The translations under genes and the position numbers were made by a program. 40,103 nucleotides of DNA from an uncultured Bacteroides sp. (GTDB taxonomy: Bacteria > Bacteroidota > Bacteroidia > Bacteroidales > Bacteroidaceae), in assembly GCA_944320735.1 (NCBI GenBank), contig CALUIQ010000125.1:1-40103 (forward strand), in the 5' to 3' direction. Positions 12,672 through 40,103 of the stretch are shown in pieces (within the stretch, counting starts at the first letter, position 1; each line of letters begins with the position of its first letter). The notes below the pieces were generated by a model. That model saw only the letters and a list, made by a program, of their open reading frames with translations. It was not told where the DNA came from and ran no database searches.

Positions 12672-12696
12672 AGTTGTTGCTTTTTGAATTCGAGCG

Positions 12697-24284: not shown

Positions 24285-25928
24285 TTATTGCTTGGCTGTA
24301 TAAATCTCCTTGATTTCATTTCCCGAAAGCATTCGGTTGTCATACACGCGGAAGTTATCCACGGTCATGTTCGTTGCGTTCAGGGTCACGCTGTTTGACA
24401 GCTTCAGACTGCCGCCCATGACGAAGGTTGTGCCCGTGTCGTAGGAAGACTGGTTCCCGCCGTTCTCGTTGAAGTGGTTGGCAGATTCGGTCACGGTGCT
24501 TGTGCGCAGCCCGTCCACATAGAGCGTATGGGTAACGGTGGAATAAGCCGTGACCTCAAAGTCGGACACGACGACGATGTGGTGCCATTTCCCGTCGGTC
24601 AGCGCGGGATGGGTGAATGCGGTGGCCGCCCCGTATTGGTACCGGTTGTTATAGCGGGTGATGATGAACTTCAAAGCTCCTCCGTCCATGCTGAGCGTGA
24701 ACATCGGCTCGTTGCCGACAGAGGAAAGTATGTGGAAGATGTGTCCGTCGGCAAAGTCTTTGCCCCAGAATGAGAAAGTCATTTCGCGGGAGTCGATGAT
24801 AGGGCTGCCTACGTTGAAGGTGGTGTTGTCCGTTCGGCTGAACTTCAACGCCTGCCCGCCTGCCACGCCGTCCACAAACGTACAGTTCCCAAACCCGTCC
24901 ACGGCATTCTCGGTAGCGTCTTCGTAGTTGCCGTCAAACTTGTAGTAGGTGTAAAGCCCTTGTGCCACGACGGTTTCGCCGGATACGGGCTCGTCGCCGC
25001 CGCCTGTCTCCGTCTTGGAGGCTGTTACGGTAATCATCGTTTCCTTGGTCCCGTCGGAGATGATGAACGTGGTGTTCACCGTCTCGGGCATCGATTCACG
25101 GTCCAGCTTCACTTGCAACACTTGGTTGCCGCCGGCCGGTACTGCTCCGGAGGTTGCCGACAGGGCGAGGTACTCAGCCGTCAGTCCCGACACGTTGTAG
25201 CTTAGTTCGGCGTTGCCCGTGTTGCGGATGTCGAGCGAGAGTTCGGTCAGTTCCGTGCCGAAATCTAAGACAGTAGGTGTTACCGTCATTTCAGCTGCTT
25301 GCGTCCGTGGTGAGCAAGACACGGAGATGGTGTAGGAATTGCCAAAAGCCGACAAGGTCACCCGTGCCGTCTTGGCTTCCGACAAGCGGTCGCGGTCTAC
25401 TGCGAAAACGATGCTTTGCGTGCGCCCCGCCGCAATGTTGCCCGAAGCCGGGCTGGCGGAAAGCCATGGGTTCTCGCCCAAGTTCAAGGACCATTCCGTG
25501 GCCGCATTGCCGTTGTTGGTGATGCTGACCGCCATCTCGCTTTGCGTCACGCCGAAGTCCAACGTGGAAGGTTCGATGGTAATCTCTGCCGCCTGCTGTT
25601 CCGGTGTCAGTTGTATGTCGCAGTTGGCCGTCTCGCCCACCAAGACAGTCACGCTGCGTGTGTTGGTTACATAGCCTTCTTTGATGAATTGCAGGCTGTA
25701 GCTGTCGGCATCCAAGTCGCGGAAGCTGAACTGCCCGTCGCTGCCTGTCACGGTACTTGTGCCAAGCCCTACGATGTTGACCTGCACGCCGCTCAGCGGA
25801 GTGGTCGTTCCGTTCTCTGTTACAATGCCTTGGATGTTCCCGTAAAGGGGATCCGCTTCTTCCGTACACGATGTCGCCAACAACAGGGCAGACAGGCATA
25901 CCACTAATAAATGATAGATTTGCTTCAT
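24285..25928 (-). CDS. Surface lipoprotein: carboxypeptidase-regulatory-like, two BACON domains, LamG-like C-terminus
   Basis: A protein of 547 residues with a lipoprotein signal (LLLATSC, Cys21). After the Cys comes TEEADPLYGN, then a carboxypeptidase-regulatory-like beta sandwich (about 30-108, GNIQGIVTENG...GSDGQFSFRDLDAD), BACON-type domains at about 113-205 and 212-302 (EPSTLDFG, NNGNAATEWSL, TPTVLDFG), and a LamG/concanavalin-like domain at about 325-545 (YYKFDGNYEDATENA, MTFSFWGKDFADGH, WHHIVVV). Such proteins bind glycans or mucin on the surface of Bacteroidetes; the ligand is unknown. Its N-terminal layout matches the larger lipoprotein two genes upstream, so the two are paralogues. 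It is the last gene of the run. Confidence 0.85.
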   Translation of the reverse strand: MKQIYHLLVVCLSALLLATSCTEEADPLYGNIQGIVTENGTTTPLSGVQVNIVGLGTSTVTGSDGQFSFRDLDADSYSLQFIKEGYVTNTRSVTVLVGETANCDIQLTPEQQAAEITIEPSTLDFGVTQSEMAVSITNNGNAATEWSLNLGENPWLSASPASGNIAAGRTQSIVFAVDRDRLSEAKTARVTLSAFGNSYTISVSCSPRTQAAEMTVTPTVLDFGTELTELSLDIRNTGNAELSYNVSGLTAEYLALSATSGAVPAGGNQVLQVKLDRESMPETVNTTFIISDGTKETMITVTASKTETGGGDEPVSGETVVAQGLYTYYKFDGNYEDATENAVDGFGNCTFVDGVAGGQALKFSRTDNTTFNVGSPIIDSREMTFSFWGKDFADGHIFHILSSVGNEPMFTLSMDGGALKFIITRYNNRYQYGAATAFTHPALTDGKWHHIVVVSDFEVTAYSTVTHTLYVDGLRTSTVTESANHFNENGGNQSSYDTGTTFVMGGSLKLSNSVTLNATNMTVDNFRVYDNRMLSGNEIKEIYTAKQ

Positions 25929-25934
25929 TGAATA

Positions 25935-26426
25935 TTACTTTTTGATTGTTTTTACTTCATTGATTGTAAATCGGTAGAGGTAGCACCCCTCTATCTGCTC
26001 AAACTGTCCGGCAATTCCCGACTCCGGCTTCATGTTGGCGAAGAGGAGGAAATGCCTGCCCGGCACAACGATGCTCTTCTTGAGGTTTTCCCACAACAGG
26101 TGCCAGTAGGCAAGGCTTTCCGCATCGTTCACCCGTTCCACGGCGGTGGGCTTGTTCACGCCCTCCCGGTATAAAGCGACGATGACTCCCCGGTGCCGGA
26201 CGGGCGGGGGAAGGATGTTGACGCGGTAGCATACGATGTCGCCCCGCCGCTTCAACGTCCTGCCGGTACCGTCCGTGCCGATAATGTCCTCCCCGTTATC
26301 GTCCACAGAGAGTTCGAGCCGGTCGAAGGTAAACTCCGGCTGCCCCGCGAAGTCGGGTATCATGTAACGTGTCCCGTCCAACGTGGCGAACTTGAATCCC
26401 TTTCGGGTGACTCTGAGGCGTGGCAT
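25935..26426 (-). CDS. Unknown small protein between two lipoproteins
   Basis: 163 residues from ATG 26426 (MPRLRVTRKGFKFATLD). A longer reading from 26465 would overlap the end of the gene before it and adds an implausible MLARYWNNQTSF tail, so the shorter start is preferred. There is no signal peptide, membrane helix or known domain that I recognise. The sequence alternates beta-like segments (FTFDRLELSVDDNGEDI, GDIVCYRVNILPPPVRHRG) with a helix around NDAESLAYWHLLWENLKK. It lies 16 bp after one lipoprotein gene and 6 bp before the next, so the three are probably one transcript and the product may act with them. No function assigned. Confidence 0.7.
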   Translation of the reverse strand: MPRLRVTRKGFKFATLDGTRYMIPDFAGQPEFTFDRLELSVDDNGEDIIGTDGTGRTLKRRGDIVCYRVNILPPPVRHRGVIVALYREGVNKPTAVERVNDAESLAYWHLLWENLKKSIVVPGRHFLLFANMKPESGIAGQFEQIEGCYLYRFTINEVKTIKK

Positions 26427-26442
26427 AGAAAAACTTGTTTGG

Positions 26443-29400
26443 TTATTCCAATACCGGGCAAGCATATCCGTTCACCGTCTCGTACTTCCAACGGCGGTAA
26501 GTGGAAGGGTCGTTCTCGTTCACCCAACGGTTCAACTCGTCTACCACGTCTTTGCCGCCCAATTGGATGAGGGTGCAGCTCGAAGAGGAGCGGGTGAAGT
26601 AAGAACAATTTTCCTGTTCCACATCACCTGTATCAATAAAGCCTGCTTCAACTCCAGCATTCCCCGCAACATCATTCAGCCAAAAGCAATTTTCTGCGAT
26701 TGTTGTATAATAACTTTGATCTAATATGCCAGCTCCGGTTATTACGTTGGAATAATTACAGCAGTTGTATAAAATATCATTATGTGATGCTCCTATAATG
26801 CCTCCGACATTGGTATCACCTTTAATTTGACCATAATTGGCACAGTTTGTTATATTTTTGGTAAGCCCTCCACTGTGTGTATGTTGTCCGCCTATTAAAC
26901 CGCCAACGTTTGTATTGCCTGTTACAGAACAATGATTTGCACAGTTGGTAACGGTTCCTTTACGCATATACCCACAAATACCTCCTACATGTCTATTACC
27001 TTCAACGGTTCCGCTTGTTTCGATGGAGTTGAATATGATGCCTTCATCTGCATATCCACAAAGTAACCCAACGTAGTATTCGGATTCTGCATTCACATTT
27101 CCTGATAGATAAAGATTTGATAAAGTCGCATTTTCAATTCTGCCAAACAAACCTGCATTGTCATTTTGACTTGTAACTCTTAACTCTGTAATTTTTTTGT
27201 TGTTTCCATCAAGATTTCCGGCAAAAGGATACCCGTTCTTTCCTATCGGTGTCCAATTCTTATTCGCCAAACTGATGTTGGACTCCAGCCGGAAGTAAAT
27301 CCCCGCATACGTCGTGCAACTATTCACTTTGTCCGCCAAGAGTTTCAGTTGCGCGGCTGTTTCAATCCGTATCGGGTCGCTCTGCGTACCCGAACCTCCC
27401 GCAAAGTTGGAAGCCACGGAAGTACCGTCCCAAATATCAACCTCGCTATCCGTGGTGGTAAACGAAACTTCCTCGCTGTATGCCACACCCGCGCTGTTCT
27501 GGGCATAGGCACGCAGGTAGTAAGTGGTCAAACCTTGTAGGCCTGTCACTTGGGTAGAGATACGGTCTCCGGTGGGGCAAACCAACTTTGCGTCATAAAT
27601 GGTCGCTTCCGATTGCGTGGACCAGCATACGCCCATTTCCGTGATGGTAGCGTTCCCGTCCGAAGTCAGCGTGGCGGTTACGTCGGCTTTGGTCTTACCT
27701 ACGTTGCTTACGGAGAGGGCTCCCCACGTGGCAAGTTCTACTTTCGTGGTGGTAAACTCTACCGTTTCGCTATATCCTGCGCCCAACTCGTTGACGGCGT
27801 AGGCGCGTACATAGTACTTAGTTCCATCTTTCAAGCCTTCCAATTTTGTGCCGAATACGTTGCCAGACGGCTTGCAACTGATGTTTTCCTGCTCAATGGT
27901 CGGTTCGGGACTTGTGCTCCAGCAGAAACCGCAGTCGGTTATCGTGCCTTTACCCTCGTCCGTTATCCGGCTTTGCAAGGTAGCGCCTTGGGTGGTGACG
28001 CCCGATACGGAGACGGCAGCCAAGGTGGGAAGGCTCAAATCTCCCGTAGTCGTCTTAAACGAAATGACTTCACCGTATGCCGTGCCTTTCTCGTTGGTGG
28101 CGTAAGCGCGTACATAGTAATTGTGGTTCAACGACAAACCTTTCAACTCGCTGCTGAAAGAGGCGGGAGTGTCCAATTCTCCTAATTCAGTTTTAGTAGA
28201 CAAATCGACAGTCAGTTCTTTTGTCTCGCCCCAAATGTGGCCGTGCTGGCCGACTTTCGTGACATTGCCCAAGTGGGTTACTGCCCCGTTGGCCGTGGCG
28301 GTGGTACCCGCTACGTTGGTCATTTCGCGGGTCTCGACCGTAGCCAAGGCGGGCAGTTTGGTCGTGGTGAAAGTCAAGGTGTTGCTGTAAACGATACCCT
28401 CGTTGTTTTCCGCATACAGGCGGACGTAGTACTTCGTCTCGGTTTCCAACCCGGTGATGGTGCCTTCTACCGCCATCGGGGTACTACAATCGCCCATATC
28501 GGTGAAGTTCGATTCTTCCAATACGGGTTCTTCCGAAGCCGATGACCAACAGAAGCCATAGCGGGTAATCTTGGAATAGCCCACGGAGACAATCGTGCCC
28601 GAAAGGGTCGCCCCGTTGTAAGCCACGTTCTTCACTTGGTCCAAACTCACTGTGGGAGTGGATTTTACGGGGACAGTCAGTTTCACGGGGACGATAATCT
28701 GCTCTTCGCCCACGCTGAAGGTGATTTGGCCGTTGTATTCACCCGCGTCCAATGCGCTGCGGTTGACGGTCAGCGTGATGTAATCTTCGGTCGTTACTTT
28801 CCCTCCCGTCTTGCTAAGGCTCATCCATTCGTTCGATACTTGGGCTTTATACTCCAGCGTTCCCTTTCCCCGGTTGGTCAAGGTCAGTTGGGCGGTGGTT
28901 TCCGTTTCACCCAAATCTATCTCGGTGGGAGTAATCACCAAGTCCGAGCCGCTGACTTCCATGTGGATGGCAATCTCCGCGCTGCCTCCGTTGGACGTAA
29001 TGGCCAATGTCTCGGTATAAGTTCCCCGTTTCAAACCTTCGCGGGAAACGGTAACAGTGATGGAAGATATTTCTTTCTCCGTTTCGCCCGCCGTCTCCGA
29101 ACAGGTCAGCCATCCGATGTTTTCTGTGATCTCCCACCTCAATACTCCGTTGCCTGTGTTGCTGATGTCCAAGGTGAGCGAAGTCGTTTCGGTCTCGAAG
29201 TCCAACGCTTCCTTGCTGACACCCAGTTGGGGATGTATCGGTGTAATGGCCTTGTCGGCACGGCTGTCTATCCCGGCTTGCACGGTGATGACCCGTGTGT
29301 CCGTGATGTAACCGTCCTTGGTAAATGTCAGCGTGTAGTCCGTCGGGGCCAGCTCGATGAAGGAGAAAGTTCCGTCGCTGCCCGTAGTACGGGTGTCGCC

Positions 29401-29580
29401 TTGCGGGCTGATGGCTACCGACACTCCGCTTACGGCTCCTCCGGTTTCCGCGTCGGTCACTGTTCCGGAGATGCTGCCATACAAATCGCGTTCGCTTTCG
29501 GTACAGCTGCCTATGCTTATCAAACCTCCTACTAAAACCATTAGCAAGAAGGTGATGGAAAAGATATTCTTTCGTTTCAT
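26443..29580 (-). CDS. Large lipoprotein: carboxypeptidase-regulatory-like, two BACON, four Fn3-like and GLUG repeats
   Basis: A protein of 1045 residues. Lipoprotein signal with Cys26 (SIGSC). Domains in order: carboxypeptidase-regulatory-like (about 33-112), two BACON domains (about 115-210, 212-305), four Fn3-like modules (about 308-405, 406-510, 512-610, 612-710) that share GFCWS and YYVRAYA signatures, then a GLUG-like repeat region (about 735-985; VGGICGYM, VGGLIGG, VGGIIG) and a C-terminal tail. Probably surface exposed, an adhesin or glycan-binding protein; the target is unknown. The GLUG part (about 26600-27230 in DNA) is much more AT-rich than the rest, suggesting a swapped-in domain. 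It shares its N-terminus with the LamG lipoprotein downstream. Confidence 0.85.
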   Translation of the reverse strand: MKRKNIFSITFLLMVLVGGLISIGSCTESERDLYGSISGTVTDAETGGAVSGVSVAISPQGDTRTTGSDGTFSFIELAPTDYTLTFTKDGYITDTRVITVQAGIDSRADKAITPIHPQLGVSKEALDFETETTSLTLDISNTGNGVLRWEITENIGWLTCSETAGETEKEISSITVTVSREGLKRGTYTETLAITSNGGSAEIAIHMEVSGSDLVITPTEIDLGETETTAQLTLTNRGKGTLEYKAQVSNEWMSLSKTGGKVTTEDYITLTVNRSALDAGEYNGQITFSVGEEQIIVPVKLTVPVKSTPTVSLDQVKNVAYNGATLSGTIVSVGYSKITRYGFCWSSASEEPVLEESNFTDMGDCSTPMAVEGTITGLETETKYYVRLYAENNEGIVYSNTLTFTTTKLPALATVETREMTNVAGTTATANGAVTHLGNVTKVGQHGHIWGETKELTVDLSTKTELGELDTPASFSSELKGLSLNHNYYVRAYATNEKGTAYGEVISFKTTTGDLSLPTLAAVSVSGVTTQGATLQSRITDEGKGTITDCGFCWSTSPEPTIEQENISCKPSGNVFGTKLEGLKDGTKYYVRAYAVNELGAGYSETVEFTTTKVELATWGALSVSNVGKTKADVTATLTSDGNATITEMGVCWSTQSEATIYDAKLVCPTGDRISTQVTGLQGLTTYYLRAYAQNSAGVAYSEEVSFTTTDSEVDIWDGTSVASNFAGGSGTQSDPIRIETAAQLKLLADKVNSCTTYAGIYFRLESNISLANKNWTPIGKNGYPFAGNLDGNNKKITELRVTSQNDNAGLFGRIENATLSNLYLSGNVNAESEYYVGLLCGYADEGIIFNSIETSGTVEGNRHVGGICGYMRKGTVTNCANHCSVTGNTNVGGLIGGQHTHSGGLTKNITNCANYGQIKGDTNVGGIIGASHNDILYNCCNYSNVITGAGILDQSYYTTIAENCFWLNDVAGNAGVEAGFIDTGDVEQENCSYFTRSSSSCTLIQLGGKDVVDELNRWVNENDPSTYRRWKYETVNGYACPVLE

Positions 29581-29697
29581 GGTTTAAATATTTTTTTCTA
29601 TTTCAATATTTATGTATCTCTCATTGTTTATATCTTAGAATCTGTCTTCGCAGAGGGCGGTTGGCCTTTCCGGAAGCCCTTTTAAGCGAAGTCCGGG

Positions 29698-29755
29698 AAG
29701 GTTAGAAACATTCGGGCCTTATGTTTCTAACCTTCGGCCTCTATGTTAGAAACAT
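29698..29755. repeat. Hairpin with repeated GTTAGAAACAT words
   Basis: AAGGTTAGAAACAT (29698-29711) and ATGTTTCTAACCTT (29721-29734) form a perfect 14-bp stem with a 9-nt loop. A third copy, ATGTTAGAAACAT, follows at 29743-29755. It lies in the 258-bp gap between the transglutaminase-like gene and the large lipoprotein gene. It could be a terminator, an attenuator or a protein site; the gap holds nothing else I can support. Confidence 0.7.
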
Positions 29756-29838
29756 TCCCGCCTTAGGATAGTAACCTAAAATGGAATAAAATCCCGGAAC
29801 CTCCGTATTTGTAATATCTATTAACCGTATTCTGTGGG

Positions 29839-31320
29839 CTATTTATCGTTCAATTTCACAACTTCGATGGAGACTTTCATCAGGTCCGGCATACCCATCC
29901 CAAGGCTTGCGCCGATGTAAGTCGGGTCGCATATCAAGTATTTCTGCCCGTCTACCAATACGTAGTCTCCCCGCGTATGGGGATTGTCGAAGTGTACGGC
30001 TGTGGCCAAGTGCAGTCCCGGATAATATAGCAACACGACTTTCATACCCAACAGGCGGCGTACCAGTTGGGAGAAGAGAATGGCGCGGTCCTCGCAGTCG
30101 GAATAGGAGGAGGCTATCGTCTCTTCGGGGAAGAACCAGTGTTCGTAGCCGAACTGGTCGTCATCCGTTTTGTATTCAAAAGCGTATTGCGCGAAATGCA
30201 GCAACGTGTTGACGGCCTCTTCCTGCGTTTTCCCTTTGAGCGCAGGGGCTATCTGCCGTTCCACGCTTTGCCAAAAGGCGTCGCTCAATCCCGCTTCCGC
30301 GTAATAGTTGAAATTCACGCAAGGGTAGGAGGACAGGAACCGGCTGTAGTCGGCGTTGTATTGCAGGTTGTAACTCCGTTGCTTGTCTTTCAACACTTTG
30401 GTCACGACATTCTGGCCTAATGCGGGTGTCCTGTCTAAGGACATGTCGAAACGCTTGGTCGCACCTCCATATTCCATGCGGCAAGTCCGGATGGAAGTCA
30501 AGTCCTTGTGTTCGGAGTTGACCACCGTGTAAACGACTCCTTGCTCGTCGCCATAGCGGAAGAACATGGTGTTGGTCACTTCGCAGTTGAAAACAATCAG
30601 CGGCAACAAGTCCTGCCGCACACGGCCAATCTTCGCGCGGTAACCTAACTGGTTCAGCGTGAATACGGCAAACACGACTTGTTCGTTGGCGGTTCCTTGT
30701 GGAAAATAGGCTTTGAAGACTCGGTTTATCAGTTGGTACATTCCCCAATCGTTCAAAGACAGTTCATCCTTGTATTGCTTCACGCTGCCGACCCACTCCG
30801 TATAAGGGAGCCGTGAAAGGCTGTTCCAATAGGCCGCTACGGATTTCTCGTCCACACTGCGCAGAGGAGGCAATGCGTAAGAGACTCTCCGCAAGGTGAC
30901 TGTTGTGCCGTAAAAGTCCGCTTTCAGTTGGGGGATTTCCATCGGGATGGGGGTGAGTTTTCTGCGGTCGTCATGGGTAGGCGGCACAGGCTGGGCAGGC
31001 GGCTCTATTTCTCCTCGCACCGGATATCGCATAGGGTTCGGACGAGGGTCGCCCGGCACGTAAGTATCGGGAGGAATCGGGTTCTTGATGGGCGGTTCTT
31101 TCTTGGTAAGCGGATAGTCCGGCCACACTTCCGCCAAGTAACGGCCGAACTCCCGGTTGATAGAGTCGTTGTACGCCTTGAATCGTTCTTCTTCCGTTCG
31201 GACATATTCGTTGAATGCCGCTTCCTGCTCCCGAGCATACTTTTCGAAATCATCTTCCGTCTGACAATAAGTACCCGTGCAAGTTAGAATCAGTCCTAAT
31301 AACAGCCAACTTCGTTTCAT
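29839..31320 (-). CDS. Secreted transglutaminase-like (Cys-His-Asp) protein
   Basis: A protein of 493 residues with a signal peptide (about 1-19, ending GTYCQ). Then comes a charged helical part with repeated Glu/Tyr (FEKYAREQEAAFNEYV), a Pro-rich linker (about 75-120), a middle region without known fold, and a C-terminal transglutaminase-like core: SYSDCEDRA with Cys409, LHLATAVHF with His443, YLICDPTY with Asp465. These three fit the catalytic triad. Bacterial members are often cysteine peptidases or amidases rather than crosslinkers. Periplasmic location is likely. It follows the LPP20-like genes with 12 bp between, and a 258-bp gap precedes the next gene. Substrate not known. Confidence 0.82.
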   Translation of the reverse strand: MKRSWLLLGLILTCTGTYCQTEDDFEKYAREQEAAFNEYVRTEEERFKAYNDSINREFGRYLAEVWPDYPLTKKEPPIKNPIPPDTYVPGDPRPNPMRYPVRGEIEPPAQPVPPTHDDRRKLTPIPMEIPQLKADFYGTTVTLRRVSYALPPLRSVDEKSVAAYWNSLSRLPYTEWVGSVKQYKDELSLNDWGMYQLINRVFKAYFPQGTANEQVVFAVFTLNQLGYRAKIGRVRQDLLPLIVFNCEVTNTMFFRYGDEQGVVYTVVNSEHKDLTSIRTCRMEYGGATKRFDMSLDRTPALGQNVVTKVLKDKQRSYNLQYNADYSRFLSSYPCVNFNYYAEAGLSDAFWQSVERQIAPALKGKTQEEAVNTLLHFAQYAFEYKTDDDQFGYEHWFFPEETIASSYSDCEDRAILFSQLVRRLLGMKVVLLYYPGLHLATAVHFDNPHTRGDYVLVDGQKYLICDPTYIGASLGMGMPDLMKVSIEVVKLNDK

Positions 31321-31332
31321 GACGTCTGACGC

Positions 31333-32208
31333 TTAAAAGTTCAACGACAGGGCGATGCCTCCCGATTGGGATGCCGCATAGGGAGAGATGCGTAGTTGTG
31401 CGTCTCCCAGCATAACGGCTTTCCGCTTCCCCTTGGCGGCGATGCCGTCTATCACGTTCCATAGATACAGGGCGGCGGCACCCGCTATCAGGCCGTTGCG
31501 GATGTTGGCGCAGTTGTCCGCCTTATTGCCGTAGGTCTGCATTTTGTGCGCGTCGTGGGTGGAGTTGAATTTCGACTCATACGATGCCCGCATGCTTTCT
31601 GCTATCACGATGCCCGTGATGCAGGCCGCTTCGCCGACGATGAAGAATATGCCTTTTCCTTTGCTGCCTTTGTGCAACTGTGCCCAACCCGGCACGAATA
31701 CACGGCCGGAGAAGGGGTAACGTCCCGTGATAGACGCATTATACTCTTTGAGTTTCTTGTCAAAACCGGAATCCTGGAAGTTGCGGGTGTCCAATGAGTA
31801 GAAATCATCCGCCCCGTTCACGTTCCGTTGCACTTGCACCAAGATATAGATTTTCAGTCGGCCGCCGCTCAGCGCAATCGGTTCGGTGGCACTGACGATA
31901 CGTCTTTTCATGCGGTTGAACTTCACGACGGCGTTGATGCCTTTCGTGGCCACGTCGTTGATGTCCTGCTGCGTGATGCCTACCACGCCTAATTCGTGAA
32001 ACGACTTCTGCAAGGCATCCGCCCATGCGGCGTTCACGGCTTCCTGTTCATTGTAACCTTCGCCTACGCCCCAATTCAGGAAATAATTGGCACCGACAGG
32101 CGGAGTAGGGGCTGTATAGGCCCAATAAGGGCGCAACTCGGTGGATGATTGGGCGAACACGTTCACCCCTATCCACAAAACAATCAGGGTAAATAAAATG
32201 TTTTTCAT
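31333..32208 (-). CDS. Secreted protein with LPP20-like N-terminus and DUF5683-like C-terminus
   Basis: A 291-residue protein from ATG 32208, which overlaps the TGA of the upstream gene (ATGA). Signal peptide about 1-20 (ending VFAQ). Residues 25-130 (PYWAYTAPTPPVGANYFLNW...VKIYILVQVQ-like strands) resemble the neighbouring 142-residue protein and the LPP20 lipoprotein type. Residues 165-270 (FVPGWAQLHKGSKGKGIFFI, then LIAGAAALYLWNVIDGI) have two hydrophobic hairpins in a pattern seen in DUF5683. Envelope location is expected. No catalytic motif is seen; probably part of a complex with its neighbours. Confidence 0.72.
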   Translation of the reverse strand: MKNILFTLIVLWIGVNVFAQSSTELRPYWAYTAPTPPVGANYFLNWGVGEGYNEQEAVNAAWADALQKSFHELGVVGITQQDINDVATKGINAVVKFNRMKRRIVSATEPIALSGGRLKIYILVQVQRNVNGADDFYSLDTRNFQDSGFDKKLKEYNASITGRYPFSGRVFVPGWAQLHKGSKGKGIFFIVGEAACITGIVIAESMRASYESKFNSTHDAHKMQTYGNKADNCANIRNGLIAGAAALYLWNVIDGIAAKGKRKAVMLGDAQLRISPYAASQSGGIALSLNF

Positions 32209-32633
32209 TCTTCTTTGTTTGAGAGGCAATTAAACGACTTGAAATTCGGAATCACACGCACGTCTTTGGCCACTTGGCAGAGGATGTAAGTGCGGTACCC
32301 GCGGCGTGTGGTCAGTTCCACCGTGTGTTGGCATACCTTATTAATAGGAATTTTTACATAGCGGTTGGCTTCCACCAATAGGCTGTCTCCTTCCAGTTGT
32401 TCGAGCTGTTGCAAGTTCAACGGTACACCTATGGCCAAGGCACTCTCCAGCACAGCCATGGCGAATGCTTTTTTATTGGCAGTTTCCTCGGTCAATCCGG
32501 TACCCTGCGATACCCGGTAATAATAAGTGTCGCTTGCAGGTGGGGGAGTCTGCACCCATTGGGGCAGAACATCCTGCCCCAACGAGGACAAGGTACAAGC
32601 GGTGAATAGTGCAAGTAATAGAATTTTTTTCAT
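32205..32633 (-). CDS. Small secreted LPP20-like protein
   Basis: A protein of 142 residues with a signal peptide (about 1-19, ending SSLGQ). The mature part PQWVQTPPPASDTYYYRVSQGTG, then EETANKKAFAMAVLESALA and YILCQVAKDVRV, has the alpha/beta pattern of LPP20-like domains. The same pattern appears in the next gene, which suggests an old duplication. There is no lipobox, so it is probably periplasmic. The genes are coupled by a 4-bp overlap downstream and a 17-bp gap upstream. No function known. Confidence 0.75.
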   Translation of the reverse strand: MKKILLLALFTACTLSSLGQDVLPQWVQTPPPASDTYYYRVSQGTGLTEETANKKAFAMAVLESALAIGVPLNLQQLEQLEGDSLLVEANRYVKIPINKVCQHTVELTTRRGYRTYILCQVAKDVRVIPNFKSFNCLSNKEE

Positions 32634-32650
32634 CTTTTTTATGTGACGCG

Positions 32651-33322
32651 TTATTTCATGGCATCCATTTCTTCCTTTTGCTTCTTGGCGCCTTCCTCCA
32701 ATTGGGCGTCTATCTTTTCGAAGAACTTTTGCTTGTCGTAGTCTACTTTCCGCACTTCCAATTCTTCAGCCAGTCCTTTCTTGGCGTCGTCCAACAAGAC
32801 ATGTACAGCCACGTAGCCCACATAACCGCCCGTGGCGCTTTGCGACAATTTGCGGCATACCACTTGGGCATATTTGTCTATCACTTTGGTGCCGATGGCT
32901 TGCGCGCCCCCTTCCAATGAACTTTCGTACATCTTCTTGCTGCTGGGTACGTTCACATCCTTGGAATAATCTTCGATGGCGTTCTTTATTATGCCCACGT
33001 AGCGGGAGGCGATGTCAGCAATGGCCACTCGGTTGGCATCCAAAATAGCCCTCGAACGGTCGGGACGGTCTTCGGCAATACCCAGTCCGGCCATATATTC
33101 GCCCGGCATGTCGTATGCCTCATCCATACAGAAAGTAAGGAGCACTTGTTCACCGACCGGCATCTTAGGCTGCGTAGGGTCATTTTGAGTTTGTACGGGC
33201 GCAGGTGTCTGGGGCACGCTCACTGTAGACTTTCCGCTTCCGCAAGAAGCGAGCAGGAGGGTTGCGAAGATTCCGCCACTTAGCAGAACCGACTTCAAGA
33301 AAAAGTTTCGTTTCATGTTCAT
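32651..33322 (-). CDS. LPP20-like lipoprotein
   Basis: A protein of 223 residues with lipoprotein signal LLLASC (Cys27 from the first ATG; a second ATG two codons on is possible). After a Pro/Gln-rich linker (30-55), the region 60-185 (GEYMAGLGIAEDRPDRSRAILDAN..., GYVGYVAVHVLLDD) fits an LPP20-type domain, and the last 35 residues are a charged helix (KIDAQLEEGAKKQKEEMDAM) that could be a coiled coil. Likely anchored to the outer membrane, facing the periplasm. It precedes the two smaller secreted proteins in the same run. Confidence 0.75.
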   Translation of the reverse strand: MNMKRNFFLKSVLLSGGIFATLLLASCGSGKSTVSVPQTPAPVQTQNDPTQPKMPVGEQVLLTFCMDEAYDMPGEYMAGLGIAEDRPDRSRAILDANRVAIADIASRYVGIIKNAIEDYSKDVNVPSSKKMYESSLEGGAQAIGTKVIDKYAQVVCRKLSQSATGGYVGYVAVHVLLDDAKKGLAEELEVRKVDYDKQKFFEKIDAQLEEGAKKQKEEMDAMK

Positions 33323-33378
33323 TACAGTTTAAATGTTGTTATTAAGTTATAAATGTTGCATAAACTTTCAAGCCATCC

Positions 33379-34458
33379 TTATGAATAATGGTCACATCTG
33401 GTTGTGGCGGGGCTGTTTATACTCCTGTCCAAGTAGTGACAATAGCCTGAACTGTAATGGGAACAACTGGAACACCGCCCGCTTGAACTACTGCTTTTAC
33501 CCAATAGGGAGAGAAGGAAGTAACCTATTATTACAATGATAAGTAGCACGACAAAATGGGCAAGTATCAGGACTGTGGACAATGACCCCAATACATAAAC
33601 CGCCGCACAAAGGAAAGCGTTACCCCAACCACTTTCGGGTACTATACTTTTGAATATCAATATAACCTGTATCAATTGGCAGATGGCGAAAATAACGAGC
33701 ACAATAGGTACGGCACTTGGAAAGAAAATGCCTGATACAATTACGGCAATAATTCCTCCTATCCATGAATAGATGCCCCAACGTCTGTCGAAAAAGCCGT
33801 TGCTGTTATAAGACACGTCATCCAGCGTGTTGAAAAAGCACATATATTGGTTATAGACCACAAAGCCAAAAACAAGAAAGTCTATAATGGTCCATACCCA
33901 TCCGACTTGATCCGGAATGCAGAACCAAATGGCATCCGAACCCATAAACGATAGATACACAAGTTCCAGAACAGATACGGATAGGAACAAAATCCAGTTT
34001 GTCAGATAGATTCCGTCTTCCAAGGGCTCTTCCCCTCGGTTTTTCCGGATGAAGAACAATGCGATGGACATTCCCAATATGACGATGACTATCCACTTCA
34101 CATCGTGTTTATGTACCCGCCACGAAGGAAACTTAAATGTTGAAACTGATGGTTTGACGTCAGTGGCAGGATCCTCCACTTTCATTAGATAGTCCGCACT
34201 GACATACGCATATCCACCATCGTAGCTGATTTTAGCCCAACCGTTTGTGATGTCATACACTTCCACTTGCCCGCCTTTGTCAATAGTTCCCAATATGGGA
34301 GCATCGACAGACGCATGGCTGCGGATATTTAGGAAGGTATTGGCTGTTACCTCATACACTGTGGTTTGCGCATGTGCCCAAAGTCCGATGCTACAGAGGC
34401 AACAGAATATCAGCAACCACTGCCAATTCGTCTTGAAAGTGTAGTATAATCTTTCCAT
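33379..34458 (-). CDS. Bacterial SH3 domain protein with multiple membrane helices
   Basis: A protein of 359 residues. A signal peptide or signal anchor (about 1-31, ending HAQ) precedes an SH3b domain (33-93: EVTANTFLNIRSHASVDAP, GWAKISYDGGYAYVSADYL). Then come a linker and one helix at about 120-138, and after a gap a group of five or six helices to about 320. The C-terminal tail (GKSSSSSGRCSSCSHYSSGY...) is rich in Ser, Cys and His. SH3b domains bind peptidoglycan or peptides outside the cytoplasm. It lies 3 bp after the 917-residue gene, which also has an SH3b domain. Role unknown. Confidence 0.75.
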   Translation of the reverse strand: MERLYYTFKTNWQWLLIFCCLCSIGLWAHAQTTVYEVTANTFLNIRSHASVDAPILGTIDKGGQVEVYDITNGWAKISYDGGYAYVSADYLMKVEDPATDVKPSVSTFKFPSWRVHKHDVKWIVIVILGMSIALFFIRKNRGEEPLEDGIYLTNWILFLSVSVLELVYLSFMGSDAIWFCIPDQVGWVWTIIDFLVFGFVVYNQYMCFFNTLDDVSYNSNGFFDRRWGIYSWIGGIIAVIVSGIFFPSAVPIVLVIFAICQLIQVILIFKSIVPESGWGNAFLCAAVYVLGSLSTVLILAHFVVLLIIVIIGYFLLSLLGKSSSSSGRCSSCSHYSSGYCHYLDRSINSPATTRCDHYS

Positions 34459-34461
34459 AGG

Positions 34462-37215
34462 TTATTTGCTTTTGATGTTGACCGTAGAAGTGTACATCTT
34501 GATACCTTCACACCATATTTCGTAACGGTAATTTCCGGAGAGGTAGGAATTACCTTTACTGTTTCCCCATCCCGGCAGATAGAATACCCCCTTGGTTCCT
34601 GTAAGTGTTCTTTTCTTTTCAAATGTATATCCTTCCGGAGAATCTGTCGCTTTCTCCAACGTTCCGTCCGGCTTGAAGACTTTTATTTGCAACAATATGC
34701 TTTCCGAAGTATTCATTCGTTTGCTATAAGAGATCTTGGGCTGAAGGTATTGTATGTCGGTGTACAATTGCTTGCCAAAATCGGTTAAGACATTCCCGTC
34801 ATAATCCGTGTTGGCAAATACGACCGCGGTAATTTCCAATGACTCCGGTGAAAGTTTTTTGTCGACCACATCTATATTGGTTGTATAGATTTTGGCTCCT
34901 TCATGCCATATCTCATACCGATAGGTTCCTGCCGGATAGGCGGTGCCCTCCTTGTTCCCCCAGCCCATAATGACACAATTACCTTCTCGTCCGGAAAGCG
35001 TGAGATTCTCTTCAAACGTATATTCCTCCGGAGATGTGCTTCCTCGAAGCAATGTGCCGTCGGGTCTGATAATCTTGACTTGCAACTTTAGCGTTTCCGC
35101 ATTTGCACTCCGTTTCTTATAGGTGATTCGGGGTTGCAGGTATTGTATGTCCGAATACAGTTGTTGTCCATATTCAGTGAGGATCCTGCGATTATAGTCT
35201 GCGTTAGCAAATGTCACGGATGAGATGCTTATCGGCCTTGCCGTATCTTCTTCTCTCCTCGTTGTCGGCACATAGGCTTCCCCTTGGCGGGTATAAGAGA
35301 ATTTATATTTCCCGGCACTTCTTGAATAGGAAACGGATTTGATGTCCCCGCTTTCGGGCGCGTCCTCGTAGTAACGCAGTACGGGAGTTTCGTCTTCCCG
35401 GAACGCATAGACCGCGGAACGTCTTTGGCCGGTCGCGTTGTCTTTCAAGATAAAGGCGAACTCGCTAAAGCTGTCATACCCGTCCTTCAGTTGCGGGAAG
35501 GTCACACTGTTGGGCTTCATCTCTTTAGCTTTTGTGAAAAGTTGCCATCCGCCGCTTCCTGTGCTCAATCCGTTTTTCTTTATAAAGTCAAGCATCGCCA
35601 CTCGGCATTTGGAGGTATTTACCATGTCTTTGGCTTCTTCATTGCCCCATACGCCGTCCAGTAGAGCAAAGTCTGTTTCGTTCAACAGATAATCCGATGA
35701 AACATAACCTTTTTGTCCGTTGGCTTCAACGTATGCCCATCCACCTTCGTTGGTATATATGGGTAGTTCGGTGCCATAGGGGATGATTCCCAAGCGGTTC
35801 TCTCTGTCGACAGATTTGGAAGAGCGTAAAACGAGTTCGTTGGCAAACACATAACCGTGCGGAACACTCTCTACAAGAGTCTTCTCTTGGTAAGCATTGT
35901 AGCCAAAGTAGGCTGCGGCGGCAACAATCACTGCAACGATTCCCCAAACGAAACATCCTTTTTTCTTTTTCTTCTTCTTTGTAGGAGGGGTGCGGAGCAG
36001 GCTGTCGTACCTGCCGTCATTTCGGGCCATGGAAAGAAGCATGTCTTCAGCCATAGATATCTGTTCTACCCGGAAGGTTGTCCTATAGAGGTAATAGTCG
36101 CCTTCATAGAACTCCATCCTCCAAGTACCCGCTTCGCGGAATATGGTTCCATTGTCTGAACCACAACCGTTTATGATGACACTCCCTCCCGTATTCCCCG
36201 GCAACGTAGCTGTCCATTTGTAATTTCCGTCCGCGCTTTGAACCGTATTTCCGGAAGGGGATAGAATCTTATACCAAATGTTTTTCGGTGTTGTAGTAGG
36301 ATAGGTCACCTCGTAAGTGATACGAGGGGTCAGGTATTGCATGTTGGTGCGGAGCGTGGTGCCAAAGTCGCTCAACAAATTTCCCTGAATGTCCCCATCC
36401 GCAAATGTGACTCCGGTGATGCGTATGCTCGTCCCCCTTGGTGACGAACTGTTGTTTGTAAGGGGTGTCTCCGGACGAGGTGAAGGTGGCATGGATTCCG
36501 TCAATTCCACAAGTCGCTTGCTGAATGCTTCGAACAGTGTTTTGTCTTTTAATCCATATTGTTTGGCGATACCCCGGCACTCCTTGCTGTAAACTATCAG
36601 CTCCTTATGATTACTATGGAGTTTGTCGCATTCGCTTAAGAGGTTGATGCAGGCTTCTAACAGGCGGCGGTCCTCTTCGCTCCAATCCCCAAACCAACAA
36701 GTCGCAATGAAGTTCAGGGCGTCTTTCTCCGCTTCGTCCAATAAGTCCTCATGGTTGTGCAGATAATTAACCGCAGTGTGAAACTTTATGACATTCTGTT
36801 TCAGCAGTTTCATCAAGGCGGTGTTGTCTCCTGTGGGTGGTGCGCTATCTCGTTTTTGTGGTTGCTGCCTGCCACGCGGCGTATGCTCACGCGTAAAGGC
36901 TTTCATTCCCTTTTGAAATTGCGTGTAGGTTGCTTCGTCCTTGGTGTACATCTGTCGCGCAATTCCCCTGAACGTCTTGCTCCATTCGATGATGTCCCGA
37001 TGGCTGGCATGGTATTTGTCGCTATCAGTGAGCGTTTTAATCAAATCCTCACACTCGGCAACAAAATCGGCGTCGAACCGGCGGTCTCGCCAAAAGTCGG
37101 CAAGCAATTCTATGGCAGACCATTCGCCCGCCGACAGATTGTCTTGCTGCGATTTCAAGAAACGGCACGCTTCGTTCCACTTGCCGATTTGTTGCTTCAG
37201 TATCTTTTCGTCCAT
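34462..37215 (-). CDS. 917-residue membrane protein: helical repeats, SH3 domain and three copies of an unrecognised beta repeat
   Basis: Two helical modules (about 1-110 and 133-240; both contain a DKxHxxHxxxIxxSK-like stretch) are followed by a repeat unit (264-383), a Lys-rich stretch (413-419), one membrane helix (about 420-438), an SH3b domain (449-512), a central part (about 515-655), and two more copies of the repeat unit (662-784, 792-917). The unit starts VTFANxDYxxxILTxxGxQL, then DIQYLQPRITY, and ends TYRYEIW. I do not recognise it. By the positive-inside rule the N-terminal third is cytosolic and the SH3 and two repeats are outside. It sits between the Hsp70 gene (7 bp) and the SH3/TM gene (3 bp). 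Confidence 0.78.
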   Translation of the reverse strand: MDEKILKQQIGKWNEACRFLKSQQDNLSAGEWSAIELLADFWRDRRFDADFVAECEDLIKTLTDSDKYHASHRDIIEWSKTFRGIARQMYTKDEATYTQFQKGMKAFTREHTPRGRQQPQKRDSAPPTGDNTALMKLLKQNVIKFHTAVNYLHNHEDLLDEAEKDALNFIATCWFGDWSEEDRRLLEACINLLSECDKLHSNHKELIVYSKECRGIAKQYGLKDKTLFEAFSKRLVELTESMPPSPRPETPLTNNSSSPRGTSIRITGVTFADGDIQGNLLSDFGTTLRTNMQYLTPRITYEVTYPTTTPKNIWYKILSPSGNTVQSADGNYKWTATLPGNTGGSVIINGCGSDNGTIFREAGTWRMEFYEGDYYLYRTTFRVEQISMAEDMLLSMARNDGRYDSLLRTPPTKKKKKKKGCFVWGIVAVIVAAAAYFGYNAYQEKTLVESVPHGYVFANELVLRSSKSVDRENRLGIIPYGTELPIYTNEGGWAYVEANGQKGYVSSDYLLNETDFALLDGVWGNEEAKDMVNTSKCRVAMLDFIKKNGLSTGSGGWQLFTKAKEMKPNSVTFPQLKDGYDSFSEFAFILKDNATGQRRSAVYAFREDETPVLRYYEDAPESGDIKSVSYSRSAGKYKFSYTRQGEAYVPTTRREEDTARPISISSVTFANADYNRRILTEYGQQLYSDIQYLQPRITYKKRSANAETLKLQVKIIRPDGTLLRGSTSPEEYTFEENLTLSGREGNCVIMGWGNKEGTAYPAGTYRYEIWHEGAKIYTTNIDVVDKKLSPESLEITAVVFANTDYDGNVLTDFGKQLYTDIQYLQPKISYSKRMNTSESILLQIKVFKPDGTLEKATDSPEGYTFEKKRTLTGTKGVFYLPGWGNSKGNSYLSGNYRYEIWCEGIKMYTSTVNIKSK

Positions 37216-37222
37216 GATTCGG

Positions 37223-38806
37223 TTATTCTACGACAGCTTTGGTTATGATGGCTTTGGATTGATTTAATTCTTCCGCGTTCTTCACGCCTTCAATGGTAAG
37301 CGAGAAGTCCAATATGTCTTTTTCCACAAAAGCGTTGACGGAAAGGATACCTTCGTTATCTATGTTGAACGTCACGGTTATCGGGGTTCCTTTGGGCCAA
37401 TCTTTGGTCAGTTTCAACACTTCGTCATTGCCCACACGATTGCAAAAGCGATCTTCTACTACAAAATCTGTTTCTTCATTCGTAAAATCACTTTCAAAGA
37501 CTTTCATTGAAACAAACCGTTGATTGTCATACGTAGTATTAAATGTCAATGTACGTTTGACGGGCAATGATGTGTTTGCGAAAATCATATTCTGTACCTT
37601 ATTCCCAACGATGTCTGTGCCATACGTTTTGCTGGTCACGTTGACCACTACGGCACGGTCGCCTCGCAAAGGCGCGGGCTTGAAATCGCTTTCACCTTCT
37701 TCGTAATCTTGGATGGCCTGTGCGTAAGCAGCGTTCATGGCATAAATGGCCGCTCCTTTGGCCACGCACTCATCCGGGTCACTCAATTTGGCGTCACAAC
37801 CAAACTCCCGGTCTATGCGTTCCTTGATTTGCGGCATTTTGCTGCTTCCTCCCACCAAAAGAAACTCGTCAATCTGCTTGTAGCCTTTGTTTTCTGCAAT
37901 TTCTATGACCCTGCGGGTAGCGTCAATCGTTTCTTCGAGGCGAGCCATCGTTAAAGAATCGAATATCTCACGTGAGATTTCTATGCGGGCCGATTTCCCT
38001 TCGTACTGGATATTGGCCTTTACATTTTGTTTGGCGGTCAATAACTTCTTTTTCTGTTCCGCTTCCAGTAGCAATGTGTATTTCAGTTCCGGAGAACTCT
38101 CCAGTGTATAGGAAGTGTGGTTTTGTTCGTTAAACTCTGTCAGCATGTATTCCGCCAAGGCCGTATCCCAATCCACGCCGCCTAAGTGATGGTCGCCTCC
38201 GGTGGCTATTACCTTGATGGCTCCCTTGTTGACATTGATAATCGTTACGTCAAAAGTTCCGCCACCCAAGTCATACACTAATACGGATTTCTTTTGATCG
38301 GTCTTGACACCATAGGAGATTGCCGCGGCTGTAGGTTCATTGATGATGGCCAACACGTTCAGTCCGGCAATTTCGCCCGCTTGCTTGGTCTGCATGCGTT
38401 CTTTGGTGCCAAAATAAGCGGGGCAGGTTATCACCACGTCCTTGATTGGTTCGGGATTGTCCCCTAAATTGTTGGCGTCATCAACCAGCTTTTTCAAGAT
38501 GAAAGCGGATATTTCTGCCGGGTCATAATGATGAGGAAAGCGGTTGATTGACTTATTGAAACTGTCGTCCACTCCCATTTCGCGCTTTACGAAAACCACC
38601 GTCTTATCCGGTTCCGTGGCTAACATGCCTTTAGCTTCTTTGCCTACGATGACATGGTCGGCATCTTCAAAATAGACCGCAGAGGGTGTCGTGGCATCGC
38701 CTTCAAAGTTGCGCAACACTACGGCTTGGTCATATTTGTCCACTTGCGAAATACAACTATAGGTCGTTCCTAAATCTATTCCATAAACAGCTCTTGAATT
38801 ATCCAT
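37223..38806 (-). CDS. Hsp70-family chaperone lacking the helical lid
   Basis: A protein of 527 residues from ATG 38806 (MDNSRAVYGIDLGTTYSCIS); a start at 38836 would add ten residues without homology. The ATPase domain is intact: DLGTT (11-15), ITCPAYFG, NEPTAAAISYG, VYDLGGGTFDVTII, and LVGGSSKMPQI. A beta substrate-binding domain follows (about 385-500), but the C-terminus stops soon after (EGVKNAEELNQSK), so the alpha-helical lid of DnaK (about 638 aa) is missing. It is thus not the housekeeping DnaK. The preceding gene encodes a GrpE-like protein, 34 bp upstream. Clients are probably the membrane proteins of this operon (inference). Confidence 0.93.
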   Translation of the reverse strand: MDNSRAVYGIDLGTTYSCISQVDKYDQAVVLRNFEGDATTPSAVYFEDADHVIVGKEAKGMLATEPDKTVVFVKREMGVDDSFNKSINRFPHHYDPAEISAFILKKLVDDANNLGDNPEPIKDVVITCPAYFGTKERMQTKQAGEIAGLNVLAIINEPTAAAISYGVKTDQKKSVLVYDLGGGTFDVTIINVNKGAIKVIATGGDHHLGGVDWDTALAEYMLTEFNEQNHTSYTLESSPELKYTLLLEAEQKKKLLTAKQNVKANIQYEGKSARIEISREIFDSLTMARLEETIDATRRVIEIAENKGYKQIDEFLLVGGSSKMPQIKERIDREFGCDAKLSDPDECVAKGAAIYAMNAAYAQAIQDYEEGESDFKPAPLRGDRAVVVNVTSKTYGTDIVGNKVQNMIFANTSLPVKRTLTFNTTYDNQRFVSMKVFESDFTNEETDFVVEDRFCNRVGNDEVLKLTKDWPKGTPITVTFNIDNEGILSVNAFVEKDILDFSLTIEGVKNAEELNQSKAIITKAVVE

Positions 38807-38840
38807 CACTCTATCTGATTTTAATTTGTGTAACATTCCA

Positions 38841-39662
38841 TTATTTTATGCTCTCGTCCAGTTTGTAGACGGCTACGATAGCGGGTTTCAAAATCTTCCC
38901 CGAAGCTATTCCTTTGAAACCGCCATAGATACATTCCGCTATAGTCCCGGCTTTTGACGGGTCGTTTGTTGGCAAACTTCGTAACGCCTGATGCTCTTTC
39001 GGCACATAAGGAGAACCTACAGGTGGTTCTGTATAAAGCAGGTCGTATTCGTCTTCAAGCATGTCTTGAATCATCAGCATGTTGCCTTCTGTGTTCTTTA
39101 GCAGTTGCGTGAACAGTTCCGCTTGTTCTCCTGTTCCCTCTTTTGTGAAATGCCAGTAAGTCTTGGCTATACGTTCGTGAATCTTGGTGATGTTCTTCAG
39201 GAAAGGCTTGGCTTGTTCGGCCTGTATGGCAAGACTGTTTTTGTGCAACTCTTCATGGAGCTCCTTGATGAGTTTGTCTTTGTAAGCCATATCTTCCAGC
39301 AGGGTTTTGATTTGTGCCAAAGTGGTCATCACCGTTTCAGTTTCGGCTACAGGCGCTACAGGCGTGGGAGCATTTTCTACTGTTTCATTGGGAAAGGTAA
39401 TGGCGCCCTCGTGTGGAGCAGACTCTCTCTCACGCAATTGTTCTTCTTTTATCTTTAGTTGCTCTTCTTTCTTGCGTAAGGCTTCCTCTTGGTCTCTCAG
39501 CGCTTTCTCTTTGTTGGCCAGCGTCTCTGCCTGTTCGGCCAGTTGACGGCTCGCTTCTTCCATCTTCTGCTCTGCATCTTTGGCTTTCAACGCATTGATT
39601 TCTTGCCTCAGAAGTTCTAACTGTTCGGTCAAATCTTTGTTCTTGTTTCCCCAAGGTGCCAT
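38841..39662 (-). CDS. GrpE-like nucleotide exchange factor with N-terminal coiled coil
   Basis: A protein of 273 residues from ATG 39662 (MAPWGNKNKDLTEQLE); an upstream in-frame start at 39767 would read through the AT-rich leader and is rejected. Residues 10-80 are a long Glu/Lys/Gln-rich coiled coil. Residues about 118-200 are helical, and the end GTIAECIYGGFKGIASGKIL followed by KPAIVAVY (239-266) matches the beta-wing of GrpE (GTV..E..QKGY....RVLRPA.V.V). GrpE opens Hsp70 for ADP release, and the next gene is an Hsp70. The N-terminal coiled coil is longer than in usual GrpE and rests on the pattern; I would call it GrpE-like. Confidence 0.75.
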   Translation of the reverse strand: MAPWGNKNKDLTEQLELLRQEINALKAKDAEQKMEEASRQLAEQAETLANKEKALRDQEEALRKKEEQLKIKEEQLRERESAPHEGAITFPNETVENAPTPVAPVAETETVMTTLAQIKTLLEDMAYKDKLIKELHEELHKNSLAIQAEQAKPFLKNITKIHERIAKTYWHFTKEGTGEQAELFTQLLKNTEGNMLMIQDMLEDEYDLLYTEPPVGSPYVPKEHQALRSLPTNDPSKAGTIAECIYGGFKGIASGKILKPAIVAVYKLDESIK

Positions 39663-39691: not shown

Positions 39692-39716
39692 AAAATAACT
39701 TCAAGCATGACACAAA
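39692..39716 (-). promoter_or_regulatory. Weak candidate promoter of the chaperone-envelope operon
   Basis: On the minus strand a TTTG (within TTTTTTTG, near 39716-39713) is followed after about 20 nt by TTATTTTC, two changes from TAnnTTTG. The GrpE-like ATG lies about 25 nt downstream. It is AT-rich sequence, so chance matches are likely. Confidence 0.25.
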
Positions 39717-39720
39717 AAAA

Positions 39721-39951: not shown

Positions 39952-40103
39952 CAAGACTACAATTCGTAAATTTGCTAGATTTCGATGCGTCTCAAACAGA
40001 GCGTCAAGTAAACGCCTTCAATATGTCTTTTGACTCCCGCTTTCCCGCCCAATGCCCGCTTCGTATGGATTAGCCTGTGATAACTCGTCCACACTTGGCT
40101 CGG

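Follow-up and report, generated by a model that had tools for sequence, protein, structure and literature searches.

Two operons possibly fused behind a conserved leader RNA, one of them a candidate membrane-anchored chaperone module, on a contig of an uncultured Bacteroides sp.

The DNA analysed here (the window) spans all 40103 bases of contig C125, part of a 2.9 Mb assembly of an uncultured Bacteroides sp. which is estimated to be 79% complete. The first-pass annotation had described eleven minus-strand genes between positions 24285 and 39662, separated by short gaps or overlaps and a single gap of 258 bases, as one set in which an Hsp70/GrpE-like pair serves a cell-envelope complex. The eleven open reading frames (ORFs), their common strand and their spacing were confirmed, the long gap lying at 29581-29838. 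The single set did not hold up, and we consider the chances about even that the run represents two operons fused behind one leader RNA, the first of them a chaperone module that is anchored in the membrane and serves the envelope. This first unit, unit A (33379-39662), encodes a GrpE-like protein, a lidless Hsp70, a 917-residue membrane protein (p917) and a multi-pass SH3 protein (SH3m). Unit B (24285-33322) encodes, besides the ORF p176, three small secreted proteins, one transglutaminase-like protein and a pair of paralogous lipoproteins.

The separation of the two units is seen in their neighbourhoods, which were read with a simple ORF caller and BLAST. Unit A was found at 12 other loci and unit B at six, and in all these 18 loci they stood apart: no unit-B gene was present in the 12 unit-A loci within the stretches read (some of these contigs are short, L025 having 9870 bases and L027 beginning inside the GrpE-like gene), and none of the six unit-B loci carried a gene for the GrpE-like protein, the Hsp70 or the whole p917. 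The two units were joined nowhere except in the window and in L013, a contig of an uncultured Bacteroides sp. and the single match of a p917 scan of public genomes that detects close relatives only. There the A-to-B junction is preserved, with 93.6% identity across 7126 bases. In L013 an unrelated sequence at 7496-7756, possibly a mobile element, truncates the first unit-B gene after about 113 codons. Since the two joined units occur separately elsewhere, the length of the run is no evidence for one system, and the idea of eleven genes conserved as one set was dropped. The first-pass annotation had named a lack of joint conservation of the neighbours in related genomes as evidence against its reading, and for the eleven genes this is what was observed, L013 excepted.

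In unit A the GrpE-like gene (38841-39662, 273 residues) is followed by the genes of the Hsp70 (37223-38806, 527 residues), p917 (34462-37215) and SH3m (33379-34458, 359 residues), all on the minus strand. The start codon of the GrpE-like gene is uncertain, the ORF tool placing it at 39767 and the earlier annotation at 39662. The unit is patchy, being present in 9 of the 99 genomes of the genus sample. In the protein searches, which include the own genome, p917 found matches in 8 of 61 genomes and the GrpE-like protein in 5 of 99. Eight of the other loci belong to the genus (L020, L021, L022, L025, L027, L086, L087, L088) and four (L097-L100) come from as many genomes of a single genus, which belongs to another family of the same order. 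The composition is a GrpE-like protein, an Hsp70, a p917-related protein and often SH3m, and the order GrpE-like gene, Hsp70 gene, p917-related gene holds in 12 of the 12, counting the GrpE-like gene of L025, which was overlooked by the ORF caller and taken from the GrpE-like protein search. These loci are partly redundant and represent about five kinds; the Hsp70s of L022, L087 and L088 are identical and L020 and L021 are nearly so. Short Hsp70s without an adjoining p917-related gene, L101 and L102 in the order sample and L093 and L094 in the genus sample, were kept outside the count. At L093 proteins with immunoglobulin (Ig)-like repeats lie about 5 kb beyond the Hsp70, and at L086 genes for protein kinase, VWA, PP2C_2, MORN, GrpE-like, Hsp70 and SH3 proteins form one run (3274-12832). 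No relative turned up in two scans of viral contigs.

The Hsp70 assignment of the first-pass annotation proved sound, PF00012 matching residues 7-513 at E 4.8e-105. The protein comprises an ATPase domain and a beta substrate-binding domain. The profile match ends at position 504 of 599, which means that the alpha-helical lid is absent. The Hsp70s of unit A have 490-543 residues and end after the beta substrate-binding domain, as compared with 636-645 residues in 11 of 12 DnaK rows (the twelfth, with 602, comes from a cut stretch). The ATPase signature positions (phosphate-loop, Lys, Glu, Asp and Thr) were invariant in the seven aligned Hsp70 rows. Canonical Hsp70s have a hydrophobic linker between the two domains; VVVN stands at this position in the window protein, and the linker is missing in L022 and L086 (alignment A2). 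In a tree of 33 rows the 14 Hsp70s of unit A, with those of the window and L013 included, formed one group (support 100/99), separate from the 12 DnaK rows and from five longer Hsp70s; the tool warned of long branches, and with L101 and L102, which were kept in the tree, the support of the whole short group was only 72/84. In the order sample (393 genomes) the type of the window was well set off from DnaK: the window Hsp70 scored 929 bits, the four genomes of the other family's genus 770-794, L101 and L102 392-394, and the other rows among the matches listed 330 or less.

The GrpE-like label was borne out for the family and not for the window protein itself. Six of seven aligned relatives matched PF01025 at E up to 0.1 (best 1.9e-10), that of L022 above the cut-off, while the coiled-coil protein of the window gave no match to PF01025 and only an NCBIfam GrpE match (E 0.0012) far under the cut-off.

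Both proteins that had been annotated as bearing SH3 domains, p917 and the 359-residue SH3m, matched SH3_3 above the cut-off. The N-terminal part of p917 holds two helical repeats, each some 110 residues long, and a single Ig-like repeat, followed by a Lys-rich stretch; after a transmembrane helix at 420-438 come the SH3 domain, a conserved domain and two more Ig-like repeats. Here Ig-like is a reading of the sequence by eye, with no Pfam match. Eight Lys/Arg residues precede the helix and one follows it, and from hydropathy and this charge bias the N-terminal part is predicted to be cytosolic and the SH3/Ig-like part periplasmic. SH3m has one SH3 domain, several transmembrane helices and a C-terminal Cys motif, the pattern of which is kept in L020 and L022. 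The outer domains vary among the relatives of p917. The four partners in L097-L100 have the same N-terminal repeats followed by transmembrane helices and by SH3_3 together with FKBP_C; a TonB_C domain ends the partner in L022, L087 and L088, and the partner in L086 begins with Sel1 repeats. SH3_3 was above the cut-off in the window protein and in 8 of the 12 other partners, and the transmembrane peak was clear in the window protein and in six of the 12 (L025, L027, L097-L100). At five loci (L020, L021, L022, L087, L088) a gene for a YkuD L,D-transpeptidase adjoins that of the partner.

Unit A is marked as a module by its gene content, its conserved neighbourhood, the separate Hsp70 lineage with its lost lid and retained ATPase residues, and the varied domains of the partners. 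The tie of the chaperone pair to an envelope complex, proposed earlier for the whole run, can therefore be kept for the first four genes and not for the rest: the GrpE-like and Hsp70 genes have a p917-related neighbour in 12 of 12 other loci, and several of these partners bear domains that are commonly met outside the cytosol or are encoded next to an L,D-transpeptidase. We suggest that the GrpE-like exchange factor would recycle the lidless Hsp70, and that this Hsp70 would grip p917 in its cytosolic part, or else a client that p917 holds; both the contact and the direction of its effect are what we infer from the sequences. p917 would span the inner membrane once, with the SH3 domain and the Ig-like repeats facing the periplasm, where in the relatives the work may fall to a prolyl isomerase, to a TonB_C domain or to an L,D-transpeptidase encoded alongside. 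The ATP cycle might then set the assembly or the activity of an envelope complex, whose role would most likely be the upkeep of peptidoglycan or of envelope proteins; the envelope is favoured because the L,D-transpeptidase and the prolyl isomerase point there. To our knowledge no bacterial Hsp70 has been shown to influence the envelope from the cytosolic side by way of a dedicated membrane partner, and a compact natural set of Hsp70, GrpE-like and membrane proteins with swapped outer domains makes that idea testable.

The run is preceded by a structured RNA, R1, at 39715-39814 on the minus strand, which ends 52 bases before the GrpE-like start codon at 39662 and appears to be the 3' part of a leader with a terminal hairpin and a U run. 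Five of the six unit-B loci have a conserved stretch in front of the first unit-B gene, and it is likewise present before the GrpE-like gene in the window and in L013; from these seven sequences a covariance model of 98 positions was built. The window copy, itself a row of the model, scored 74.1 bits. R1 occurs in 71 of the 99 genus genomes (E up to 0.01), with as many as nine copies per genome, and in 20 of 148 genomes of the order (E up to 1e-4), the own genome included. In 68 distinct rows 93.0% of the cells pair and double changes are seen in 16 of 27 pairs, and the covariation score was 0.330 as against at most 0.114 in slid controls; this alignment was fitted to the model and is hence biased toward it. 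Sixty R1 regions were fetched, from part of the matches listed, and some are near-copies of one another. The next ORF of at least 130 residues was co-directional with R1 in 53 of 58 places (the other two regions had none), which gives p 3.5e-11 if the places are independent, as some are not. The gap from R1 to this ORF had a median of 76 bases, and in 29 of the 53 it fell within 0-110 bases.

The 5' part of the leader was assigned to 39815-40063 (minus strand) by alignment to relatives with large gaps (alignment A8). The likely -7 box would lie beyond the contig end at 40103; in L013 TACATTTG stands at 286-293. A TAnnTTTG box was present 180-327 bases upstream of R1 in 47 of the 60 regions, compared with 92 of 1100 downstream windows placed at random and 301 of 3000 shuffles; none was found before the R1 copy of L079. 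These boxes came from a looser scan, a first scan for Bacteroides promoters having been negative both for the window and for the sequences preceding the unit-B relatives. A scan for the sigma-70 consensus was of no help, and a terminator consensus scan did not list the R1 hairpin. No R1 match was found for the window and L149 among 4227 Rfam families at E up to 1; for L137 the only match was atpB, with 14.2 bits against 37.4, and at gathering scores six loci gave only FopS, elsewhere than R1. In the portion of Weinberg 2010 (PMC2864571) that was consulted, Bacteroidales-1 and Bacteroides-1 carry Rfam numbers and Bacteroides-2 does not; the latter falls outside the Rfam comparison.

R1 heads a variety of operons. 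It precedes unit A in L022, L087 and L088 and was not found at E 0.001 in L020, L021, L025, L027 (which has no upstream sequence), L086 and L097-L100. Two further Hsp70 operons, L090 and L091, begin some 35 bases after an R1 copy, and R1-headed runs hold tubulin-like, FHA, kinase-Sel1, SrfB-like and helicase proteins as well. The operons of L090 and L091 encode a protein with an N-terminus of the NPYRxLG type, an Hsp70 of 830-836 residues and a protein like the kinase-AAA fusion of L024; the motif is reminiscent of a J domain, but the L090 protein has no Pfam match. Runs with tubulin-like proteins (under the Pfam cut-off in L174 and L175) or SrfB/Virul_Fac-like proteins (L195) lie downstream of R1 in L174, L175, L189 and L195, and a second copy in the window's own assembly (L172, G000:C202:4063-4163) precedes a co-directional ORF. 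No enrichment of SH3 or lipoprotein domains was observed behind R1, SH3 being present in 2 of the 60 loci.

The GCGUUGCU strand of R1 pairs in the consensus fold or, alternatively, with GCAAUGC. The lowest-energy fold of the window copy (z-score -5.1) has the alternative pairing and a separate hairpin before the U run, and of six copies folded, four took the consensus fold and two, the window and L090, the alternative one. The alternative helix is 90.5% paired, with a covariation of 0.103 as against 0.111 in one slid control. Since this pairing shows no covariation beyond the controls and the hairpin was absent from the terminator scan, the action of R1 as a switch is put forward only as a proposal.

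The leader also bears on the origin of the run. Behind R1 the window has unit A and, 56 bases further on, unit B; in five relatives the gene that comes after R1 is the first one of unit B. Because the window R1 is of a different sub-type from that of the unit-B relatives in the aligned rows, a leader together with unit A was probably placed in front of unit B in the lineage of the window, replacing its old leader. Such a fusion would explain the single strand, the short gaps and the likely co-transcription with no need for a common function. Since one leader RNA precedes the entire run, its co-expression is plausible, and in the window lineage the two units are probably co-transcribed.

Unit B, likewise on the minus strand, begins with a 223-residue lipoprotein (32651-33322, lipobox by eye), which is also the first unit-B gene in five of the six relatives (L079, L080, L081, L082, L083, L085). 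It is followed by a small secreted protein of 142 residues (32205-32633) and a secreted or membrane protein of 292 residues (31333-32211). These two are distant paralogues, a relative of the latter resembling the former (25%, E 2.5e-7), and a more distant relative of the 292-residue protein matches DUF5683. The earlier description of the small proteins as LPP20-like was dropped: nothing in the assembly matched PF02169, even with E values up to 10 admitted, though the control was weak (matches in 3 of 14 control genomes, none above the cut-off). The secreted protein of 493 residues (29839-31320) had been called transglutaminase-like, a label that stands as a weak resemblance, since its matches to PF04473 (17.5 bits against a cut-off of 20.5, E 0.0029) and PF01841 (14.1 bits against 23, E 0.058) both lie under the Pfam cut-offs. 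Two multi-domain lipoproteins of 1045 residues (26443-29580) and 547 residues (24285-25928, the last gene) are paralogous as annotated, sharing CarboxypepD_reg and BACON domains; the shorter also has a laminin-G-like domain. Between them lies p176 (25935-26465), which matched 3 of 99 genomes including the own, weakly and partially in the other two (G103, G030). With the own genome included, the transglutaminase-like protein matched 44 of 99 genomes and the 292-residue protein 16 of 99. L080 has every unit-B gene but p176, in unchanged order; L079 and L083 are without the 1045-residue lipoprotein; L081 and L082 lack this gene and a called 142-residue gene, with a different gene order in L081; and in the more distant L085 the first two genes are missing (BLAST, E 1e-5). 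Two FopS small RNAs (RF04319) were found above the gathering score in L082, at 1560-1629 and 1892-1965. Elsewhere in the window, the ORF order and the sequence starts of 1-13700 resemble a gene cluster which we take to be that of division and cell-wall (mur/fts) genes.

Several observations weigh against a chaperone module separate from unit B. No J-domain gene was recognised in unit A, and the window has no L,D-transpeptidase gene. Among the partners, those of L020 and L021 matched SH3_3 under the cut-off, and those of L025 and L027, which have MORN repeats, lacked it; the transmembrane peak was at the threshold in L021, below it at the same place in L020, L022, L087 and L088 (1.43-1.47), and lacking at that place in L086. 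The GrpE-like protein of L086 has no Pfam GrpE match and owes its label to BLAST with that of L022 (E 2.9e-11). As to unit B, a 472-residue SH3 membrane protein with C-terminal cysteines lies within it at L079 and L080, in the latter in the place of p176 (SH3m is 25% identical in alignment to the protein of L079); at L080 a second, divergent SH3 protein gene adjoins the unit, and at L083 a nearby 231-residue protein is 46% identical to the SH3 part of p917. On account of these SH3 proteins some functional kinship of the two units may exist. If it went so far that all eleven genes formed one envelope system, SH3m might substitute here for the SH3 membrane protein of unit B. The common strand, the short spacing and the junction kept in L013 would agree with that, but in the face of 12 unit-A and six unit-B loci where the units are separate we regard it as quite unlikely. 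The lipoproteins, once proposed as the exposed surface end of the chaperone set, belong to unit B and lie outside that set.

A role of unit A in stress or conflict signalling, in which damage to the envelope or an invasion would be sensed by the Hsp70/GrpE-like pair together with the SH3 membrane protein and signalled onward, in the manner of HSP70/GrpE conflict systems or of the TerY-P triads of kinase, phosphatase and VWA, is a possibility to be taken seriously, even if not the probable one. At L086, the only one of the 12 other unit-A loci whose flanking genes were scanned with Pfam, Pkinase, VWA, PP2C_2 and MORN genes directly precede the unit, an arrangement which fits signalling too; the unit is patchy in the genus, tubulin-like, FHA and kinase genes are found in other R1-headed runs, and the consulted portion of Kaur et al. 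2020 (PMC7159879) describes HSP70 and GrpE in company with an FNIII protein that is part of a fusion with DnaJ or TPR. However, the unit-A proteins gave no GTPase or nuclease match, and the L,D-transpeptidase and the prolyl isomerase indicate the envelope. In PADLOC the GrpE-like protein produced only weak matches of the coiled-coil type (best E 0.0016), beside one weak Cmr5 match, and membership in a defence system was therefore dropped. That unit A is an ordinary DnaK/GrpE duplicate travelling with unrelated neighbours seems very improbable. The homologies would allow it, and the assembly (G000) yielded no full-length DnaK, only the lidless Hsp70 and a 32-bit fragment, probably because it is incomplete; but the Hsp70 is lidless and forms a clade apart from DnaK, the three-gene order is identical in every other locus, and a full-length DnaK row is likewise present in 7 of the 8 other unit-A genomes of the genus, the exception being G082, which is 71% complete. 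(A second DnaK-like frame with three stop codons was noted at G110:C112:18025-19791.) We also think it rather unlikely that R1 is no leader at all and serves as a stand-alone small RNA or as the plain terminator of an upstream gene. The terminal hairpin and U run, retained in the lowest-energy fold of the window copy, would suit such a role, while the prevailing direction and close start of the next gene and the box upstream of most copies speak for a leader.

If the fusion of two operons behind a leader is correct, the locus illustrates the growth of an operon by insertion behind a common leader, and R1 offers a handle on possibly co-regulated accessory operons in Bacteroidales. A bolder reading, which we offer tentatively and with considerable doubt, is that R1 would be an undescribed, switchable Bacteroidales leader for a regulon of accessory machines and a landing place for cassette exchange, and that the lidless Hsp70 modules would be ATP-driven devices whose action reaches through the inner membrane to peptidoglycan or to proteins that fold outside the cytosol.

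Neither unit A nor R1 was found described in the literature searched. With the DnaK/GrpE of the same group unit A shares the ATPase domain, the beta substrate-binding domain and the exchange factor; its Hsp70 differs from DnaK in the absence of the alpha lid, in its clade and in the adjoining p917-related gene. In E. coli the Hsp70 YegD, with the YegI kinase, the PphC phosphatase and YegL, is an example of an accessory Hsp70 in a signalling neighbourhood, and we know of no GrpE-like gene or SH3 membrane protein there. JUMPstart/ops, EAR and UpxY/LoaP-type leaders are conserved elements before accessory or surface operons, as R1 is; R1 has no Rfam match, and the likeness is one of position.

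Closer parallels to unit A come from conflict systems. In the consulted portion of Kaur et al. 2020 (PMC7159879) an HSP70/GrpE theme is described among the GAP1-N2 GTPase-centric systems, in which, as in unit A, HSP70 and GrpE genes adjoin that of a protein in which beta-sandwich repeats are combined with helical or TPR parts. The gene pair is present in unit A, GrpE by family homology; no GTPase-type Pfam match was obtained in the eleven window proteins, where the presence of GAP1 models in the library was unchecked and the flanks lay outside the scan. The partner in unit A differs by its transmembrane helix and SH3 domain, and in relatives by FKBP or TonB_C, and unit A belongs to Bacteroidales, whereas the GAP1-N2 systems, according to the same portion, are mainly from firmicutes and actinobacteria. 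The portion consulted of a second paper (PMC11090510) places Hsp70 with TerY-P triad genes in the CoCoNuT systems. The triad (kinase, PP2C, VWA) is lacking among the eleven window genes and present at L086, where, as in CoCoNuT, an Hsp70 relative lies near kinase, phosphatase and VWA genes; the Hsp70 parts of CoCoNuT are fused to or stand beside restriction proteins, unlike those of unit A. Among the literature searched, and as far as the consulted portions of these two papers go, the HSP70/GrpE theme of the GAP1-N2 systems and the Hsp70/TerY-P association of CoCoNuT are the described systems nearest to unit A.

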